A DNA stretch of 64,000 nucleotides from Candidatus Hydrogenedentota bacterium (lineage in GTDB: Bacteria > Hydrogenedentota > Hydrogenedentia > Hydrogenedentales > CAITNO01): NCBI GenBank assembly GCA_012730105.1, contig JAAYBJ010000146.1, forward strand, positions 1 through 64,000, in the 5' to 3' direction. This document shows, one piece after another, positions 31,645 to 49,145 of the stretch. A model generated the notes under the pieces. It was not told the DNA's origin. It did no database searches and saw only the letters and a program-made list of their open reading frames with translations. The position numbers and the translations under genes were made by a program. The stretch's first letter is position 1; every line of letters begins with the position of its first letter.

Positions 31645-32868
31645 CTAAAGGGCGCTGGCCGCGCCAAGATGATCAATCATGGAAATCATGGGTAGAAACA
31701 GGGATACAAAAAGAATCAATACGGCAGTTCCGATAACAAGCGTAAATACGGGCTGCAGTGATTCACCTAATCCGGAAATGGCTATGCGAACTTCTTCCTC
31801 ATAAATGTCGGCGATTTGCTCCGCGACCTGGTCTACTCGTCCTGATTCCTCACCGGTCACAAACATATCGACGATGACGGCCGGCATAACACCGGAGGCG
31901 CGCATGGGTTCTTCAAGCCCTCCCCCGCCTTCCACAGTGCTTCTCATGGCATTGAGGGATTCCGCAACAGCGCGATTATGGATGGCATCTTTGGTGAGGT
32001 CCAGGGTGGACATCATTGAAAGTCCGCTACGTAAAAGGAGCCCCATGGTGCGGCACATTTCCGTAATGGCGTTCTTGTGAATGATGCTGCCGATTATGGG
32101 AAGTTTAAGTTTCAAGTAATCAATTGCCATGCGTCTTGCGGGATTCCGAATAAACCAGAATTGGTACAGGAATATCATTAGAACAAGTACAAGGATGGGC
32201 ATCCACCACCACTGGCGAATGAGCTCGGAGGAGTCAATCAGAAAGCGGGTGCTTGCCGGAATATCCATATTCGAGCGCGCAAAGAATTCAGAGAAAACCG
32301 GCACCACGAAAGATGTGATCACAAACAGGGCCACAATACAGGCGACAATCAGCAATATCGGATAAATCATTGCCCCACGAACACGTTTTCGAAGCATTTC
32401 CCGGGATTCGCGATAATTTACAATACGGTGAAGAATGGTGGTGAGGGTGCCGCTTGCCTCGCTGGCGCGAATCAGATTTACAAAAACAGAATCAAAATAG
32501 TTCGGATGCCTGTCAAAAGCCTGCCATAAGGCATTTCCGCCTTCCACGTACAGGGCGATATCATTAATCAAGCCCCTGACTGCCGGACGTTCGCTGCGGA
32601 TTGAAAGGGATTTCAGCGCGCGCAAGATGGAAACCCCCGAGTCAAGAAGCATGATAAGTTGCCTTAAAAACAGGGTAATATCCGAATAACGAACACTTCC
32701 GGAAGAAAAGAAACCTTGTTGTAGATTGTCCTGTTTCCGGGAGGCGTGGGCTTCCGAAGTGCCCTCTGTTGCGGGGGAACCACTTTTCCCCGGTTTCAAA
32801 CCTTGTGTCAGGGTAACCCGCTTCATGCGCTTTGAAGAGCCCGTGGGCTTGTCCGGGATGTTTCCCAT
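31645..32868 (-). CDS. Type II secretion / type IV pilus inner-membrane protein GspF/PilC
   Basis: The 407-residue protein is the polytopic platform protein of type II secretion or type IV pilus machines. A basic hydrophilic N-terminus of about 55 residues precedes two copies of the T2SF domain: ITLFLRQLIMLLDSGVSILR at about 65 and MCRTMGLLLRSGLSMMSTL at about 265. Three transmembrane helices are visible (IYPILLIVACIVALFVI, WWWMPILVLVLMIFLYQF and the C-terminal FTLVIGTAVLILFVSLFLP). AAGGAG precedes ATG 32868. No secretion ATPase is adjacent. Confidence 0.9.
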   Translation of the reverse strand: MGNIPDKPTGSSKRMKRVTLTQGLKPGKSGSPATEGTSEAHASRKQDNLQQGFFSSGSVRYSDITLFLRQLIMLLDSGVSILRALKSLSIRSERPAVRGLINDIALYVEGGNALWQAFDRHPNYFDSVFVNLIRASEASGTLTTILHRIVNYRESREMLRKRVRGAMIYPILLIVACIVALFVITSFVVPVFSEFFARSNMDIPASTRFLIDSSELIRQWWWMPILVLVLMIFLYQFWFIRNPARRMAIDYLKLKLPIIGSIIHKNAITEMCRTMGLLLRSGLSMMSTLDLTKDAIHNRAVAESLNAMRSTVEGGGGLEEPMRASGVMPAVIVDMFVTGEESGRVDQVAEQIADIYEEEVRIAISGLGESLQPVFTLVIGTAVLILFVSLFLPMISMIDHLGAASAL

Positions 32869-32939
32869 AGTTCTGAACTCCTTTTTGATCACGAGGTGTT
32901 GCCTTGCGAAGTCTCTTTCGTCGGGACTTCATCGGAAGA

Positions 32940-33560
32940 TTAGGGCTTGAAGGTGCCAAATGATATGACTCGACAGCCGTTTTCCTCCACAGTAATTATG
33001 GATTCCACGGAATATTTACCCAGTACGCGCATTTCACCCGTACTGGCACGCTTTATTTCGCTTGAACTGATGACACGGTAAGCTTTCCCGGTACCCGGCC
33101 ATGCGGGCGCGCTTTGAAACCGAGCGGACCATGATTCCGCGTCCATCGCGGAAAGGGTTACCGCCGCTTCGGCAACATGGGTTTCTATCGGTATGGGGGT
33201 CTCATGGGTTGCGCCCGGCTCTCCTCCATAGACCCTGTACGAAAAGACCTGTGACAGGGCCGGCGCCTCGCCTTGCCGATAATTATTGTGTATTTGCCCC
33301 AGTGCACTTTCCAGGCCCGCAATAGCATAGTGGCGTGCCCGTACCGAGTAGACGGAACGGGTGTTGCCTTCCAGTTCGAGGGACATGTAACGCAGATAAG
33401 TGGCGCCAAGCATGGAAAACAAGGAAAGAAACGCAAGGGCTATAAAAAGAGCGGCCCCCACACGAAGTTTTTTTTCATTCGCGCGGGTGCGACAAAAGTT
33501 GTTTTCAGCCTTTGATAACGGCATAAAATGTATCTTGAATGGGCGCTCGGTTGGTTTCAT
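32940..33560 (-). CDS. PilX/GspK-like minor-pilin-associated membrane protein
   Basis: The 206-residue protein has one N-terminal transmembrane helix (GAALFIALAFLSLFSMLGATY at about 34-54) after a basic stretch, then a periplasmic domain with no recognised motif. The pattern after the helix (YLRYMSLELEGNTRSVYSVRARHYAIAG's opening part) is that of PilX-N-type proteins, in which Ala-rich helix alpha-1 continues into the periplasm. It starts four bases after the stop of the GspJ-like gene and probably acts at the pseudopilus tip. Confidence 0.7.
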   Translation of the reverse strand: MKPTERPFKIHFMPLSKAENNFCRTRANEKKLRVGAALFIALAFLSLFSMLGATYLRYMSLELEGNTRSVYSVRARHYAIAGLESALGQIHNNYRQGEAPALSQVFSYRVYGGEPGATHETPIPIETHVAEAAVTLSAMDAESWSARFQSAPAWPGTGKAYRVISSSEIKRASTGEMRVLGKYSVESIITVEENGCRVISFGTFKP

Positions 33561-33564
33561 TCGA

Positions 33565-34197
33565 TTAATTCACATAGGTTCGGAAAGTGCGGACGCGGGA
33601 CAAGTGCTTGTCATCCCGCATGGCTTCCATGATGGATATGCTAATCTGGACAGCCTTGGGCATTCCGTCTTGTTCCCAATGGTCCAGCCATACGGCGCCG
33701 TCAAAATATTTAATCCGCATGCCGGTAACGCCAGGAAAAATATCTGTCGCTGTTTCGGCGTCAGGGCCCGATAACAGAGGCCGGGCATGGCGGATTAATT
33801 TAAGGTCGCCCTCCTTGCGTTCAATCTCATACCGCACAAGATACCGGTCCCGGGATTCTTCGTTCCCAGTAGAATATTCGACAGGCAGGGAGAATCGGTC
33901 ATCTTCAAATATCAGCCGCCAGAAACGACGATTGTCTTCATAATTTCCCCGTTGTCCTCGAAGCCCCGTACCAGTGACCTCAGAGGACAGAAGATTCTCA
34001 AAGTCCAATGCCATGACGGAAAAAATGGAAGTCGCCCTGTGGTTCAAACGCTGGGTGAGTAGAATATCCCCCCAGTAACTGGAAAGTTTAAAAAAGCCGG
34101 TCGCACTTAGGGTTGTAAGTACTGACAATAATGTTACGGCCAGAAGCAGTTCAAAAAGGGTGAAACCCGTTGATTTCCTTCGGATACTACACATCAT
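33565..34197 (-). CDS. Type II secretion minor pseudopilin, GspJ-like
   Basis: The 210-residue protein carries a prepilin peptidase site: STG/FTLFELLLAVTLLSVL, where the Glu at position 5 after cleavage is present. The single hydrophobic helix is followed by a periplasmic domain with RYEIERKEGDLKLIRH, a feature seen in GspJ-type minor pseudopilins that report a RYRL-like pattern. It overlaps the upstream prepilin gene by four bases. It should be processed by a GspO/PilD peptidase encoded elsewhere. Confidence 0.8.
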   Translation of the reverse strand: MMCSIRRKSTGFTLFELLLAVTLLSVLTTLSATGFFKLSSYWGDILLTQRLNHRATSIFSVMALDFENLLSSEVTGTGLRGQRGNYEDNRRFWRLIFEDDRFSLPVEYSTGNEESRDRYLVRYEIERKEGDLKLIRHARPLLSGPDAETATDIFPGVTGMRIKYFDGAVWLDHWEQDGMPKAVQISISIMEAMRDDKHLSRVRTFRTYVN

Positions 34198-34757
34198 AGC
34201 CCTTCCCCTTTCTTTTCTCCAGGGGGCGCTGTGGCCGTGTCTACACGGCTTCGGGCGATGCTGGAGCTAAGGGCGAAAAGATATGGCCTACCCTGTGTGT
34301 ACCAGGAGACGCTTACGGTTATTTCATAACTCGCCGCATCCGGAGATGGGAGTCGTCCCCATGCTTTGCATCGGAATTTATTGTACAAACTAAGAATGCG
34401 CTCATGGGCGTTTCGTGTCGCAAGGTTTGTTTCCGGGAGGGGGGGCATGCCGGAATGAAGTGGGCCCGTTTTCTCACAGTCTATCGCGAACAGACCATGT
34501 TCGTTCGGGGTGTTCGTCTGCCAGCAGAATGCATCCGGACTGGTATTGAGCAGGTGCAGGTAGGTTTCCGCCACTTCCAGGGCGATGGTTTTGTCCCGTG
34601 ACTCCGCGGCAAGACGAACCGCCGAAACGAACATCGCAATAAAAATACTTAGTGCGACAGAAACCATGGTCAGGGCAACAATAATTTCAACCAGGGTGAA
34701 ACCGGGCCGGCCCTCTCTTTTGGAACAATAGATTCGAACTGTTGAAGAAATGTTCAT
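34194..34757 (-). CDS. Type II secretion minor pseudopilin, GspI-like
   Basis: The 187-residue protein has the cleavage motif GRPG/FTLVEIIVALTMVSVAL and a long hydrophobic alpha-1, followed by AAESRDKTIALEVAETYL, which resembles the AxxxAxxLAE stretch of GspI. It is the first gene of the gspI-gspJ-pilX-gspF transcript. I choose ATG 34757; the frame extends to a TTG at 34799, but that adds an unconserved leader. A consensus-like promoter lies 70-100 bases upstream. Confidence 0.78.
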   Translation of the reverse strand: MNISSTVRIYCSKREGRPGFTLVEIIVALTMVSVALSIFIAMFVSAVRLAAESRDKTIALEVAETYLHLLNTSPDAFCWQTNTPNEHGLFAIDCEKTGPLHSGMPPLPETNLATRNAHERILSLYNKFRCKAWGRLPSPDAASYEITVSVSWYTQGRPYLFALSSSIARSRVDTATAPPGEKKGEGL

Positions 34758-34828
34758 AAAAAGATGATTGACACCTGCAAAAGCATTTGATTTACACAAT
34801 GGAATCTAACGATACCAGGTTCTTAAAT

Positions 34829-35087: not shown

Positions 35088-35225
35088 ATGCAGTGCGCGT
35101 TATGTAACGAATATATTGATGACAATGAGTTCGTGTTCGATGAAGCGTTTGAAATTGACGGCGAATATTGGCATGCCGAATGTTACGCCGAATATTACGG
35201 AGAAGAGCTCGAAGAAGCTGTTTAA
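35088..35225 (+). CDS. 45-residue acidic zinc-finger-like protein
   Basis: A short gene beginning ATG CAG TGC with AGGTG upstream. The product starts MQCALCNEYIDDNEF and contains WHAECYAEYY. CxxC plus HxxC is the spacing of a LIM/treble-clef-like zinc-binding pair (Cys3, Cys6, His29, Cys32). It is very acidic, ending in EEGLE-type residues (GEELEEAV). The gene has its own strong promoter and a rho-independent terminator, so it is a well-expressed single-gene unit. I do not know a function; binding of nucleic acid or a protein partner is possible. Confidence 0.75.
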   Translation: MQCALCNEYIDDNEFVFDEAFEIDGEYWHAECYAEYYGEELEEAV

Positions 35226-35299: not shown

Positions 35300-35486
35300 G
35301 GGGGATGATGATCTTCGCCGGGGCGGGATTCTTAGGATAATTTTTGTGTAGGATCGGTTGCAGTGGAGCCAATTCTGGCGTAGGACGGTAGATTTTTCAG
35401 GGGGGTCTATGGTACCATGATCTTGTTCTGCCAAGGGGTGAAAGCGATCGAAGGAACGCCCCGCAGATGAGTTTAATCTGTTTTTC

Positions 35487-35676
35487 CGCCCTGCGATGTT
35501 CGATATGGCGAAAAAGCGCGTGGCCTTTCACAGTGAACTGGGAGTTCGATATTTGTGCAGCCTACGGCACACCTCCCTTGAGAGGGAGCCGGATGACTGT
35601 CGTGAGAACACCCCCCTATTGAGGGAAAGGTTCACCCTGCTTTTCAACAGCCAGTCGGCATGCGCGGGGTTTTTTA
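35487..35676 (+). ncRNA. ssrS: Candidate 6S RNA (SsrS)
   Basis: This gene-free stretch folds like 6S RNA and has its length, about 190 bases. The closing stem pairs CCCTGCG (35489-35495) with CGCGGGG (35663-35669) and continues ATGTT (35496-35500) with GGCAT (35657-35661). A large internal region follows; GTGAAC near 35533 can pair with GTTCAC near 35630, and CTCCCT/AGGGAG forms a perfect apical hairpin around 35570-35590. A T-run after the stem (35670-35675) would terminate it. The GATGTTCG, TTTCAC, TGAAC series in the 5' half resembles 6S sequences I know. A -10-like TAATCT is at 35474-35479. 6S binds RNA polymerase sigma-70 holoenzyme. Orientation is set by the terminator. Confidence 0.55.
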
Positions 35677-35731
35677 GTTAGGCTATGAGGGGGCTTTTGC
35701 GCAAGGGGCTGTCTGAATTGAAAAATATTCC

Positions 35732-35761
35732 AACCGCCAATGAACACGAATGGACATGAAT
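35732..35761. repeat. Dispersed intergenic repeat, copy 2
   Basis: AACCGCCAAT followed by the decamers GAACACGAAT and GGACATGAAT matches the copy at 4862-4890. The rest of the gene-free stretch 35677-35959 holds only a CCCCA/TGGGG hairpin (35863-35882); I see no gene there. Confidence 0.55.
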
Positions 35762-35959
35762 AGTTTTTGGGGTATCGCATCGTGTTCGTCCTCTCTTCCG
35801 GTCGCATCCTTTCTTCCCTTTCGACGCAATTAATATGACCTTATTGATATTGAGTGATTCCCCAGTATCTCATTTGGGGATGTGACCGTCTCTCTTGTTA
35901 TATTGATTCGTGGGCATTGGTGTTAATGCGTGGTTCTCTAGGAGGCCTTGCGCTGTTGA

Positions 35960-37975
35960 TTAATTGACGGGGGCGCAGGGTGTTTCGATCCACTTCAAGG
36001 TGAATCGGTAATGCAGGCTGCTGGACACCAGATGAATCATGTGGTCGGGAGTTTGTGTGGCGGCCAGGTATCCCCCGGGTTCTGCCCGGGTCGGAGTCGC
36101 GGTGAAGGGACCTGTATTGCCGCCTGCGGAGAATTCACCTTTTCCGGGGGTTAGCAGTTTTTGTACAGGCCATGTTTCGCCGTCATCGTACGACAGGGCG
36201 GCAAACATGCCATATCCAATGAAGGGTTTGTTTGAGGCATCGCTGAATAGAAGGCCTTTGAGGTTGTCTCCTTGAGGATCCGTGAACGACACAAACAGAA
36301 TGGGACCTTCCCGCAAACGCATCAGCACCAACCGTTGTCCGCCACCTATTGAAGGAAAGGAACTGGCGGCATAATCCCAGGTGCGCCCGAGATCTCCGGA
36401 AACGCTGCGCGGCATATGTCCGTTGATGGCATCACCGCGTCCGAACGCGAGCAGGCGGCCGTCGTTCAGTTCCACCACGCCGGCATGGATACCCGCGATG
36501 GATCCGCCCGTGGCGCCTTCCTGAAAGGTCGGCAGGGTTTTGTCTTTGCTGGCCTCTTTCCAGCTTTTTCCATCGTCCAGGCTGATGTGAATGGTGGATC
36601 CGCCATCCATGCCGGTTACAGCGTCACACGGCAGGATAAGCGCCCCTGCACGGGTCTTGAAGGCGCCCGCGATGGGCATGTTGCGCAGACCGCGTTCACC
36701 GGCTATCCAGTGATGGGCGGACCAGGTTGCCCCGTTATCCGTGCTGGTGCGGTAAAACAAGGCAAGATTCGCCCAACCGTAACTGGCGGAAATCCCTTGA
36801 AAATGGTACAGAATATTACGTTCCGCGTCCGTCCACAATGCCGTGGCGTGCATATTCCTGTCCGGCACTTTGTAGAAAAGGGCCGCATTATCCCAAGCCG
36901 CCTGTCCTTTGCGCAGACGTGCCGCCGCCACGGCCAGTTCCCTGCCTTTTTCCTCCCGTGTCGTATACCAGGTGGCGAGCAGGTCGCCGTTGGCCATAAA
37001 GGTGATATCGGGGCAGTGATTATGACGTGAGAAAAGCGGGCCTTCAGTATTTGCCGGGATACGCACAAAGGGAATGGGATCCAGAAAAAGGGCTTTGCTT
37101 TCCAAGGCGGTGGTGGACCAGTCGTAGACCTCCTGGGAAACGTTTCGCGCCCAAATTTCTGCTTTTACCGGAAGCGGTCGCGACGGGGGCACTGGGGCAA
37201 TGATAACGCGAAAGCCCGTCAGCCATAACCGGTCATCTGGCAGGGCACCAAGACGGTTGGCGCTGCGCAGATAGTGCGCCTCCACACCATGGCTACCGCC
37301 TCGGGTGACTTTGCTGATGCCGCCCTCATAACCGATAGGATCTGTTTGTTCCGTTGCCGGATAAGGCCCATACCAGTCCAGGCACCATTCTTCGACAAGC
37401 CCGTGCATGTCCATCAATCCCCAGCCATTGGGCGGCGTTTGCCCCACCTTGAGCGAAACAGGTTCTGGTTCCCAGTGGTCGGCCTGTTCTCGATGATACA
37501 CGGAGGGTAACTCATTTCCTGTTGCATATTCGGTGACCGTGCCGGCCCTGCACGCGTATTCCCATTCCGCCTCCGTGGGAAGCCGGTACGGAAGACCTTC
37601 CTTCGCTGACAACCAGTCGCAGAAGTCGGCGGCTTCGACCCACGAAATAAAGATGACCGCCTCGTCATCTTCGCGCGATAAACCCCGGTTCCCACGGAAT
37701 TTTGCATGTGCCGGGGCGAATTGTTCGTATTGCATGTTGGTTACCGGGGTGGCCGCCATAAAAAAAGGCTGTGTAATGCTCACCTCATGCAAGGGTTTCT
37801 CATCAAAATCCCCGTCTTCACTACCCATTCGGAAGGAACCTGCCTCTACCCGCACTAAAGACATGCCAAGGCTGTTAACGCGTGTTTGATGTGTTTCAGC
37901 TTCAGTCCATCCGACGCAGACAGCTACTAACATCAGCACCCGGAATCCCTGTTTCAACCAGTGCTCCTCATCCAT
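35960..37975 (-). CDS. Exported SUMF1/FGE-like domain fused to BNR sialidase-like domain
   Basis: The 671-residue protein has a signal peptide (FRVLMLVAVCVGWTEAE). Residues about 35-265 form a formylglycine-generating-enzyme-like (SUMF1) domain: GMSLVRVEAGSFRMGSEDGDF, RLPTEAEWEYACRAGT and VTRGGSHG are its hallmarks. Residues about 300-670 form a sialidase-like beta-propeller with four Asp boxes: STDNGATWS, SLDDGKSWK, SGDLGRTWD and SYDDGETWP, plus an RIP-like entry (FVRIPANTEG). The propeller probably acts on sialic acids or another sugar acid; the FGE-like part is likely binding or structural. It is 50 bases downstream of the nfnB-like gene and may be separate. Confidence 0.85.
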   Translation of the reverse strand: MDEEHWLKQGFRVLMLVAVCVGWTEAETHQTRVNSLGMSLVRVEAGSFRMGSEDGDFDEKPLHEVSITQPFFMAATPVTNMQYEQFAPAHAKFRGNRGLSREDDEAVIFISWVEAADFCDWLSAKEGLPYRLPTEAEWEYACRAGTVTEYATGNELPSVYHREQADHWEPEPVSLKVGQTPPNGWGLMDMHGLVEEWCLDWYGPYPATEQTDPIGYEGGISKVTRGGSHGVEAHYLRSANRLGALPDDRLWLTGFRVIIAPVPPSRPLPVKAEIWARNVSQEVYDWSTTALESKALFLDPIPFVRIPANTEGPLFSRHNHCPDITFMANGDLLATWYTTREEKGRELAVAAARLRKGQAAWDNAALFYKVPDRNMHATALWTDAERNILYHFQGISASYGWANLALFYRTSTDNGATWSAHHWIAGERGLRNMPIAGAFKTRAGALILPCDAVTGMDGGSTIHISLDDGKSWKEASKDKTLPTFQEGATGGSIAGIHAGVVELNDGRLLAFGRGDAINGHMPRSVSGDLGRTWDYAASSFPSIGGGQRLVLMRLREGPILFVSFTDPQGDNLKGLLFSDASNKPFIGYGMFAALSYDDGETWPVQKLLTPGKGEFSAGGNTGPFTATPTRAEPGGYLAATQTPDHMIHLVSSSLHYRFTLKWIETPCAPVN

Positions 37976-38025: not shown

Positions 38026-39489
38026 TCAGGCGGGCTTGGGAACTACAATTTCCTCCCCGTGGAGGTACTTGTTGATGGTAGCGGCGGCGGTGCGCGCCTG
38101 GCCCATGGCGCTGATGACGGTGGCGGCACCCGAAACGATGTCGCCGGCCGCGAAGACGCCTGGCACAGAGGTGGCCATGGTGGTTTCGTCTACAATAATT
38201 GTTCCCCACTTTGAGGTGGCGAGGTCCGGCATGGAACGCGGGATAAGCGGATTCGGGTTGTTGCCAATGGCAATGACCACGGTGTCCACCTCAATGACAA
38301 ACTCGGAACCTTTAACCGGAACAGGACGGCGGCGGCCGGATTCGTCCGGCTCGCCCAGCTCCATCTGAATGCATTCAATGCCAGTTACACGGTGCTTATC
38401 GTCTCCCAAAATCTGCTTGGGATTGGTCAACAACTTCATTTTCACGCCTTCCTGTTCGGCGTGATGGACTTCCTCGATACGGGCGGGCATCTGCTCTTTG
38501 GCGCGGCGGTAAACGATATGCACATCACCACCCAGGCGCAGTGCGGTCCGGGCGGAATCCATGGCGACATTACCACCGCCGACCACGGCGACCCGTTCCC
38601 GGCGGATGGGCGGCGTATCATATTTCGGGAAGAGATAGGACTTCATCAGATTGGAACGGGTCAGGTATTCATTGGCGCTATACACGCCCACGAGGTTTTC
38701 GCCCGGGATACCCAGAAATGCCGGCAATCCCGCTCCGGTGCCGATAAACACAGCATCATACCCTTCTTCCTCCAACAATTCCGGGATGGTGGCGTTGCGT
38801 CCGACTACGAAGTCCATCACGAATTCAACGCCCATTTGCTTGAGGAAATTTACTTCAGCCTTTACAATCTCCTTGGGCAGACGAAATTCCGGAATTCCGT
38901 ATACCAGCACCCCACCCGTTTCCTGGAGCGCTTCAAATACGGTTACTTCATGGCCCATACGAACAAGATCGCCCGCCGCGGTCAACCCGGCAGGGCCCGC
39001 CCCGATGATGGCGACTCTCTTACCGCTTTTCGGGGGAAGCTCGGGGGTGGCCACGGCGCCGGACGCGCGCTCATAATCCGCCACAAAGCGTTCCAGACGC
39101 CCCACAGCGACCGGTTCGCCCTTGATGCCAAGAATGCACTTGCTCTCACATTGTTCTTCCTGGGGGCATACCCGGCCGCAGATGGCGGGAAGAGCGTTTT
39201 GTTCCTTGAGATGATGGGCAGCCTCAATGAATTTGCCCTCTTGGATCAGGGCAATAAATCCCGGGATATCCACATGGACCGGACACCCATCCACGCATTT
39301 TGGTTTTTTGCAGGTCAGGCAACGGCTTGCTTCGAGCATGGCCAGTTCCGGGGTGTAACCGTAGGGCACTTCCTGAAAATTGCGCGCGCGGTCTTCCGGC
39401 GCCTGTTCAGGCATCGCCTGGCGCGGGGGACGTTCCTTTTTGGGCTTTGGTTCAGCAGCAGTATTGTCTGTATTGCTATTGTCTGGCAT
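38026..39489 (-). CDS. NfnB/GltD-like NADPH oxidoreductase subunit
   Basis: The 487-residue flavoprotein matches the homotetrameric-type small subunit of glutamate synthase and NfnB. The N-terminal domain binds two [4Fe-4S] clusters (RCLTCKKPKCVDGCPVHV at about 57-74 and ICGRVCPQEEQCESKC at about 103-118). The FAD motif IIGAGPAGLTAAGDL is at about 160-174 and the NADPH motif VVGGGNVAMDSARTAL at about 300-315. No glutamate synthase large subunit is adjacent; instead it ends a nuoE-nuoF/gltD-nuoG/nfnA operon. A partner role with the NfnA domain of the preceding gene, bifurcating electrons between NADPH, NADH and ferredoxin, is the best reading. The first 35 residues are a charged tail. Confidence 0.88.
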   Translation of the reverse strand: MPDNSNTDNTAAEPKPKKERPPRQAMPEQAPEDRARNFQEVPYGYTPELAMLEASRCLTCKKPKCVDGCPVHVDIPGFIALIQEGKFIEAAHHLKEQNALPAICGRVCPQEEQCESKCILGIKGEPVAVGRLERFVADYERASGAVATPELPPKSGKRVAIIGAGPAGLTAAGDLVRMGHEVTVFEALQETGGVLVYGIPEFRLPKEIVKAEVNFLKQMGVEFVMDFVVGRNATIPELLEEEGYDAVFIGTGAGLPAFLGIPGENLVGVYSANEYLTRSNLMKSYLFPKYDTPPIRRERVAVVGGGNVAMDSARTALRLGGDVHIVYRRAKEQMPARIEEVHHAEQEGVKMKLLTNPKQILGDDKHRVTGIECIQMELGEPDESGRRRPVPVKGSEFVIEVDTVVIAIGNNPNPLIPRSMPDLATSKWGTIIVDETTMATSVPGVFAAGDIVSGAATVISAMGQARTAAATINKYLHGEEIVVPKPA

Positions 39490-48841: not shown

Positions 48842-48918
48842 TGGTAGCGGTGCAGGGATTCGAACCCCGGACACGTGGATTATGATTCCACTGCTCTAAC
48901 CAACTGAGCTACACCGCC
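48842..48918 (-). tRNA. tRNA-Met (anticodon CAT)
   Basis: The minus strand reads GGCGGTGTAGCTCAGTTGG for acceptor and D arms. The anticodon stem is GTGGA/TCCAC with loop ATCATAA, giving anticodon CAT. The T arm has GGTTCGAATCC, and the gene ends with an encoded CCA. It lacks the initiator's mispaired first position with the GGG/CCC anticodon stem, so it is elongator Met, or possibly Ile with a modified C34. Confidence 0.93.
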
Positions 48919-49061: not shown

Positions 49062-49145
49062 GGAGGGTTAGCATAATTGGTAATGCACCGGTCTTGAAAA
49101 CCGGCGGCTTCGGCCTTGTGGGTTCGAGTCCCTCACCCTCCGCCA
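49062..49145 (+). tRNA. tRNA-Ser (anticodon TGA)
   Basis: GGAGGGT and ACCCTCC form the acceptor stem. CCGGT/ACCGG with loop CTTGAAA gives anticodon TGA. A type II variable arm (GCGGCTTCGGCCTTG region) identifies a serine tRNA; GGTTCGAGTCC is the T arm and CCA is encoded. The 3' end abuts the stop of the convergent transglutaminase gene. Confidence 0.92.

Follow-up and report, generated by a model that had tools for sequence, protein, structure and literature searches.

A very probable 6S RNA gene in a Candidatus Hydrogenedentota genome

6S RNA is a small RNA that mimics an open promoter and switches off the main RNA polymerase. Does a Candidatus Hydrogenedentota bacterium encode such an RNA at positions 35487-35676 of the window (the whole stretch of 64,000 nt analysed here), where a sequence-only reading had proposed a structured RNA, probably 6S? 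The Rfam model for 6S RNA, RF00013, matches at 35485-35674 of the forward strand over its full length (model positions 1-187) with 54.9 bits and an E-value of 3.5e-8 in the 64-kb window, the curated gathering score being 46.4 bits. When only the 661-base segment 35300-35960 is scanned, the E-value is 3.6e-10. This is the check that the sequence-only reading had itself suggested, and it supports the 6S assignment; the segment named was the right one, but its coordinates are two bases off the model match. The length of the modelled RNA, 190 nt by RF00013, agrees with the earlier estimate of a total length close to that of 6S RNA and falls within the 180-200 nt expected of 6S RNAs, and the reading frames across it are not conserved. 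RF00013 has a single match in the whole genome. Compared to the 6S/SsrS family described by RF00013, the RNA is alike in length, closing stem, central bubble, and apical arm; its score is modest, and no difference in kind is seen. Judged from these data, 35485-35674 (+) is with a probability of about 97% a 6S RNA gene (ssrS-like).

A different structured RNA that merely resembles 6S RNA is very unlikely to occupy the locus. The example to be considered is an Ms1-like binder of core polymerase, Ms1 being structurally related to 6S RNA (PMC9130861). In the same paper Ms1 is described from Actinobacteria, whereas the present genome groups with the Hydrogenedentota. The full-length RF00013 match above the cut-off also speaks against an Ms1-like RNA, and no other Rfam family comes near: a scan of 35300-35960 against the other families at a loose threshold gave four further matches, all far below their own cut-offs.

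In a set of 60 genomes, the present one being counted in, RF00013 matches with an E-value of 0.001 or better were obtained in 39 and matches above the cut-off in 33. A home-made covariance model, R1, built from 30 sequences of which the window is one, found one locus each in 57 of 68 genomes of the phylum, and 34 of the 38 phylum genomes with at least 90% completeness and at most 5% contamination were positive. No R1 match was obtained in the remaining 11 of the 68, for which a laxer search yielded just two scores at chance level. Four of these 11 are of good quality by the same thresholds (G011, G017, G019, and G046); their 6S gene may be lost or may lie within assembly gaps. Most of the relatives were picked with 6S models, which biases the collection toward paired sequences. 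Free of this bias is a search by plain DNA similarity, which is blind to structure and located the 6S locus in all four genomes of the genus including the present one. The three other sequences are 84-89% identical to that of the window, and the one of G001 was found in this way though missed by RF00013. Among the papers listed in searches of mostly open literature, none joined 6S RNA with a name of the phylum; 6S RNA of Hydrogenedentota may nonetheless be on record elsewhere, for instance in the full alignments of Rfam.

Less probable still than an Ms1-like RNA is a decayed 6S pseudogene in this particular genome. Decay would fit the RF00013 score of the window, which is below that of 23 of the 38 matching relatives, and the 7 out of 51 model pairs that are non-standard in the window. 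Against it, R1 assigns 170.1 bits to the window sequence compared to a best score of 181.3 bits in the phylum (the R1 alignment includes the window), the genome contains no second copy, and the sequences of the genus mates show the high identity given above.

For the fold, the RF00013 structure of 51 pairs (1529 cells) was evaluated on A2, an alignment of 30 sequences whose rows were chosen by the 6S model, so that the counts lean toward pairing. On A2, 78.9% of the cells are in standard pairs, compared to 74.2% after shuffling and at most 45.2% for slid versions of the structure. Changes on both sides are found in 26 of the 51 pairs (shuffle mean 18.0), and the covariation score is 0.220 (shuffle mean 0.138; slid versions at most 0.094); neither value was reached in any of 500 shuffles. 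RNAalifold, run unaided, proposes 43 pairs, 21 of them with compensatory changes. The covariation that the sequence-only reading had wanted checked in relatives is thus present in both analyses. The computed fold of the single window sequence has -72.4 kcal/mol, compared to -60.7 kcal/mol (sd 4.7) for dinucleotide shuffles (z -2.5; 2 of 200 as stable), a suggestive difference that is weak by itself and not decisive.

All features of the RNA given in the following are located on the forward strand. By the mapped RF00013 structure, the closing stem P1 (helix 1 of the pair counts) consists of 35489..35502 and 35656..35669, i.e., RNA positions 5-18 paired with 172-185, and 8 of its 17 pairs are invariant in the 30 sequences. 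Its 5' strand includes the run GATGTTCG (35495-35502), which resembles E. coli 6S RNA, in line with the sequence-only reading. Helix P2 (helix 2), which borders the central bubble, is formed by 35515..35525 and 35629..35641; 72.9% of its cells are paired, and 7 out of 10 pairs show two-sided change. The apical (internal) arm, 35540..35613, comprises helices 3-6 and includes the perfect hairpin CTCCCTTGAGAGGGAG at 35573-35588. The closing stem, the internal long-range pairing (here helices 2 and 3), and the apical perfect hairpin read earlier from the bare sequence are thus all recovered. The 3' strand of the central bubble carries a small hairpin, CCCUAUUGAGGG (35614..35625), as well as which only 1 of 100 shuffles folds. 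In many relatives this hairpin is unclear, and it is absent in L018 and L024. It has no clear support as a phylum-wide element, since many loci fold it no better than shuffles do, in part owing to segments that were cut too long.

The segment is intergenic, as had been stated, and is flanked by a 45-aa ORF (ATG at 35088, stop ending at 35225) on one side and by a minus-strand gene at 35960-37975 on the other. The longest overlapping frame, 35496-35681, encodes 61 aa and in the window spans the greater part of the segment, but in genus mates it is cut short by an early stop (L016 and L010) or disrupted (L033). Three overlapping ORFs were compared with Pfam and gave no match, so the frames are well described as shadows and a clear protein homologue was not encountered. 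A comparison of the segment with phage DNA gave no match either. A protein-coding segment, i.e., this or an overlapping frame whose codons fold by chance, is therefore hardly tenable, since the comparison within the genus already refutes it and the changes follow base pairs. At the level of sequence comparison, the locus is a member of the 6S family with a conserved rod-shaped fold and a central bubble, in single copy, conserved throughout the phylum and without a conserved frame.

Several observations concern the neighbourhood. The 45-aa ORF (35088-35225, forward strand; MQCALCNEYIDD...) shows a CxxC...HxxC pattern and is weakly LIM-like (PF00412, E-value 0.0021, 18.7 bits, below its cut-off). 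It is stop-free in 7 of 17 genomes of the family including the present one, with 71-98% identity in the other six. In the window, G002, and G003, i.e., in 3 of the 4 genus genomes, it is situated a few hundred bases upstream of the 6S gene on the same strand; in G001 it is located on a different contig from the 6S gene. The gene at 35960-37975 (-) encodes a protein of 671 aa with an FGE-sulfatase (SUMF1-like) domain and a BNR/sialidase-like domain. Next to it, the GltD-like protein encoded by 38026-39489 has counterparts with 93% and 87% identity in two Candidatus Hydrogenedentota/Hydrogenedentes genomes. In the genome with the 93% identical protein, the 6S gene is likewise located 3' of gltD on the opposite strand. 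Among the 18 sources considered with R1 (the window and 17 of 80 loci), proximity of 6S and gltD was observed, beyond the window, for L034 alone. A run of four ORFs at 31645-34799 (-) looks by eye like type II secretion/pilin genes, with the prepilin-like N termini GFTLFELLLA and GFTLVEIIVA; one of the four was compared with Pfam and gave no match. Two tRNA genes, 48845-48918 (-) and 49062-49142 (+), are located about 140 bases apart on opposite strands, the second with a long extra loop.

Both ends of the transcript can be approached from the sequence. The terminal T-run noted earlier is found at 35670-35675 directly after the closing stem and possibly serves intrinsic termination; it was not among the predictions of a terminator scan. 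Upstream, a probable extended -10 element, TGGTACCAT, is situated at 35410..35418 (+), its last base 66 nt from the modelled 5' end. Of 31 loci (those of A2 plus L033 of G001), 29 carry the pattern TGnTAnnnT within 100 nt upstream of the 6S gene, compared to 3 that carry it at a distance of 100-300 nt; because the loci are related, these 29 are not 29 independent events. For 20 of the 29, a distance of 15-31 nt separates the last base of the pattern from the modelled 5' end, and for nine including the window 48-75 nt. Due to the latter distance, transcription in the family to which the present genome belongs may yield an RNA with an extended leader that is then trimmed. A scan with the sigma-70 consensus reported no site at 35410-35418, and a -35/-10 scorer ranked another site of the window first; with both tools, a sigma-70 site with a good -35 element was not found beside the 6S gene of the window.

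As far as the known family is a guide, the RNA would accumulate as growth slows and, by mimicry of an open promoter, bind RNA polymerase in complex with the primary sigma factor; when nutrients return, the polymerase would copy a short pRNA from the 5' strand of the bubble and would thereby be released. The genome has a gene for the primary sigma factor. Another RpoD-like sigma factor of this genome is encoded outside the window (G000:C148:17334-18014) and reaches 245.9 bits at a curated cut-off of 354. In E. coli 6S RNA, the pRNA starts at U44. From this start and the position of a conserved CCUU in the alignment (35524-35527 in the window), we propose for the phylum that the pRNA starts at the second U of CCUU, with 35514..35527 as template. 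Its synthesis would open P2, whose 3' strand would then be free to pair with the distal segment of the 5' central bubble, i.e., 35629..35635 with 35533..35539, as suggested by pairing counts and folding. We refer to this pairing as the collapse helix. P2 and the collapse helix exclude each other, since both use the GG of the 3' strand.

The seven bases that precede the GGG of the apical arm have the potential to pair with the 3' strand of P2, which contains GGUUC. From 37 loci (the 30 of A2 and 7 more), 35 were counted, with L118 (not located) and L115 (no anchor) left out. At least 5 leading pairs of the collapse helix are possible in 30 of the 35 and at least 7 in 28. On A2, 91.3% of its cells pair, and the covariation is 0.213, compared to 0.107 for shuffles (none of 500 reaching it) and 0.093 for the best slid version. 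Just 2 pairs show two-sided change, a number equalled in 272 of 500 shuffles; the covariation therefore comes down to the two outer pairs. The GAACC core is nearly invariant and may be conserved for some other reason. In minimum free energy folds, with the helix scored as formed when at least 4 of its 7 pairs are present, it is predicted for 9 of 35 free RNAs and for 29 of 35 once the pRNA site is occupied (14 nt ending at CCUU kept unpaired). Occupation of another 14 nt gave 11 of 35, and after shuffling of the far 5' bubble segment the average was 0.05 of 35 (0-1 in 20 rounds). An alternative pairing scheme for the bubble, based on the single fold of the window, was rejected: it is less well kept (74.2% of cells), and a slid version has the higher covariation score (0.192 compared to 0.137).

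According to PMC8876501, a central bubble collapse helix between the 3' strand of P2 and the distal 5' bubble was deduced for the 6S-1 RNA of B. subtilis and the 6S RNA of A. aeolicus, and in E. coli 6S RNA a 9-bp hairpin arises within the 3' bubble on release instead. The Hydrogenedentota RNAs resemble those of B. subtilis and A. aeolicus in the predicted ability of the 3' strand of P2 to pair with the far 5' bubble, with the addition of the small 3' bubble hairpin common to the window and some relatives; the B. subtilis helix was inferred from probing, the present one from comparison and folding. The overall fold is also like that of E. coli 6S RNA, but in place of the 9-bp release hairpin, a 3' bubble hairpin of 3-4 pairs stands beside the collapse helix in 3 of the 4 occupied folds displayed (out of 35 made). 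The fourth, that of L016, is rearranged otherwise. A release of the B. subtilis/A. aeolicus type via a collapse helix would have roughly an even chance of applying to the Hydrogenedentota.

A wider proposal is put forward tentatively, the odds being somewhat against it: the collapse helix may be a part of the 6S release switch that is selected throughout the phylum, and an extended -10 promoter may drive 6S nearly everywhere. Extended -10 promoters are reported to be inhibited by 6S RNA in E. coli, so 6S RNA driven by a promoter of this kind may limit its own synthesis. If the switch exists, two segments of the 5' strand would compete for a single GGUUC on the 3' strand, with the outcome set by pRNA synthesis. 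Beyond the identification of 6S RNA, the promoter pattern and the collapse helix are modest additions.

The 6S RNA gene described here is an expected housekeeping RNA gene of a known kind in a little-studied phylum. With its identification, a phylum that is known chiefly from metagenomes most likely has this global transcription regulator, and the 57 loci of the phylum provide a comparative set on which the release helix of B. subtilis and A. aeolicus (PMC8876501) may be tested.
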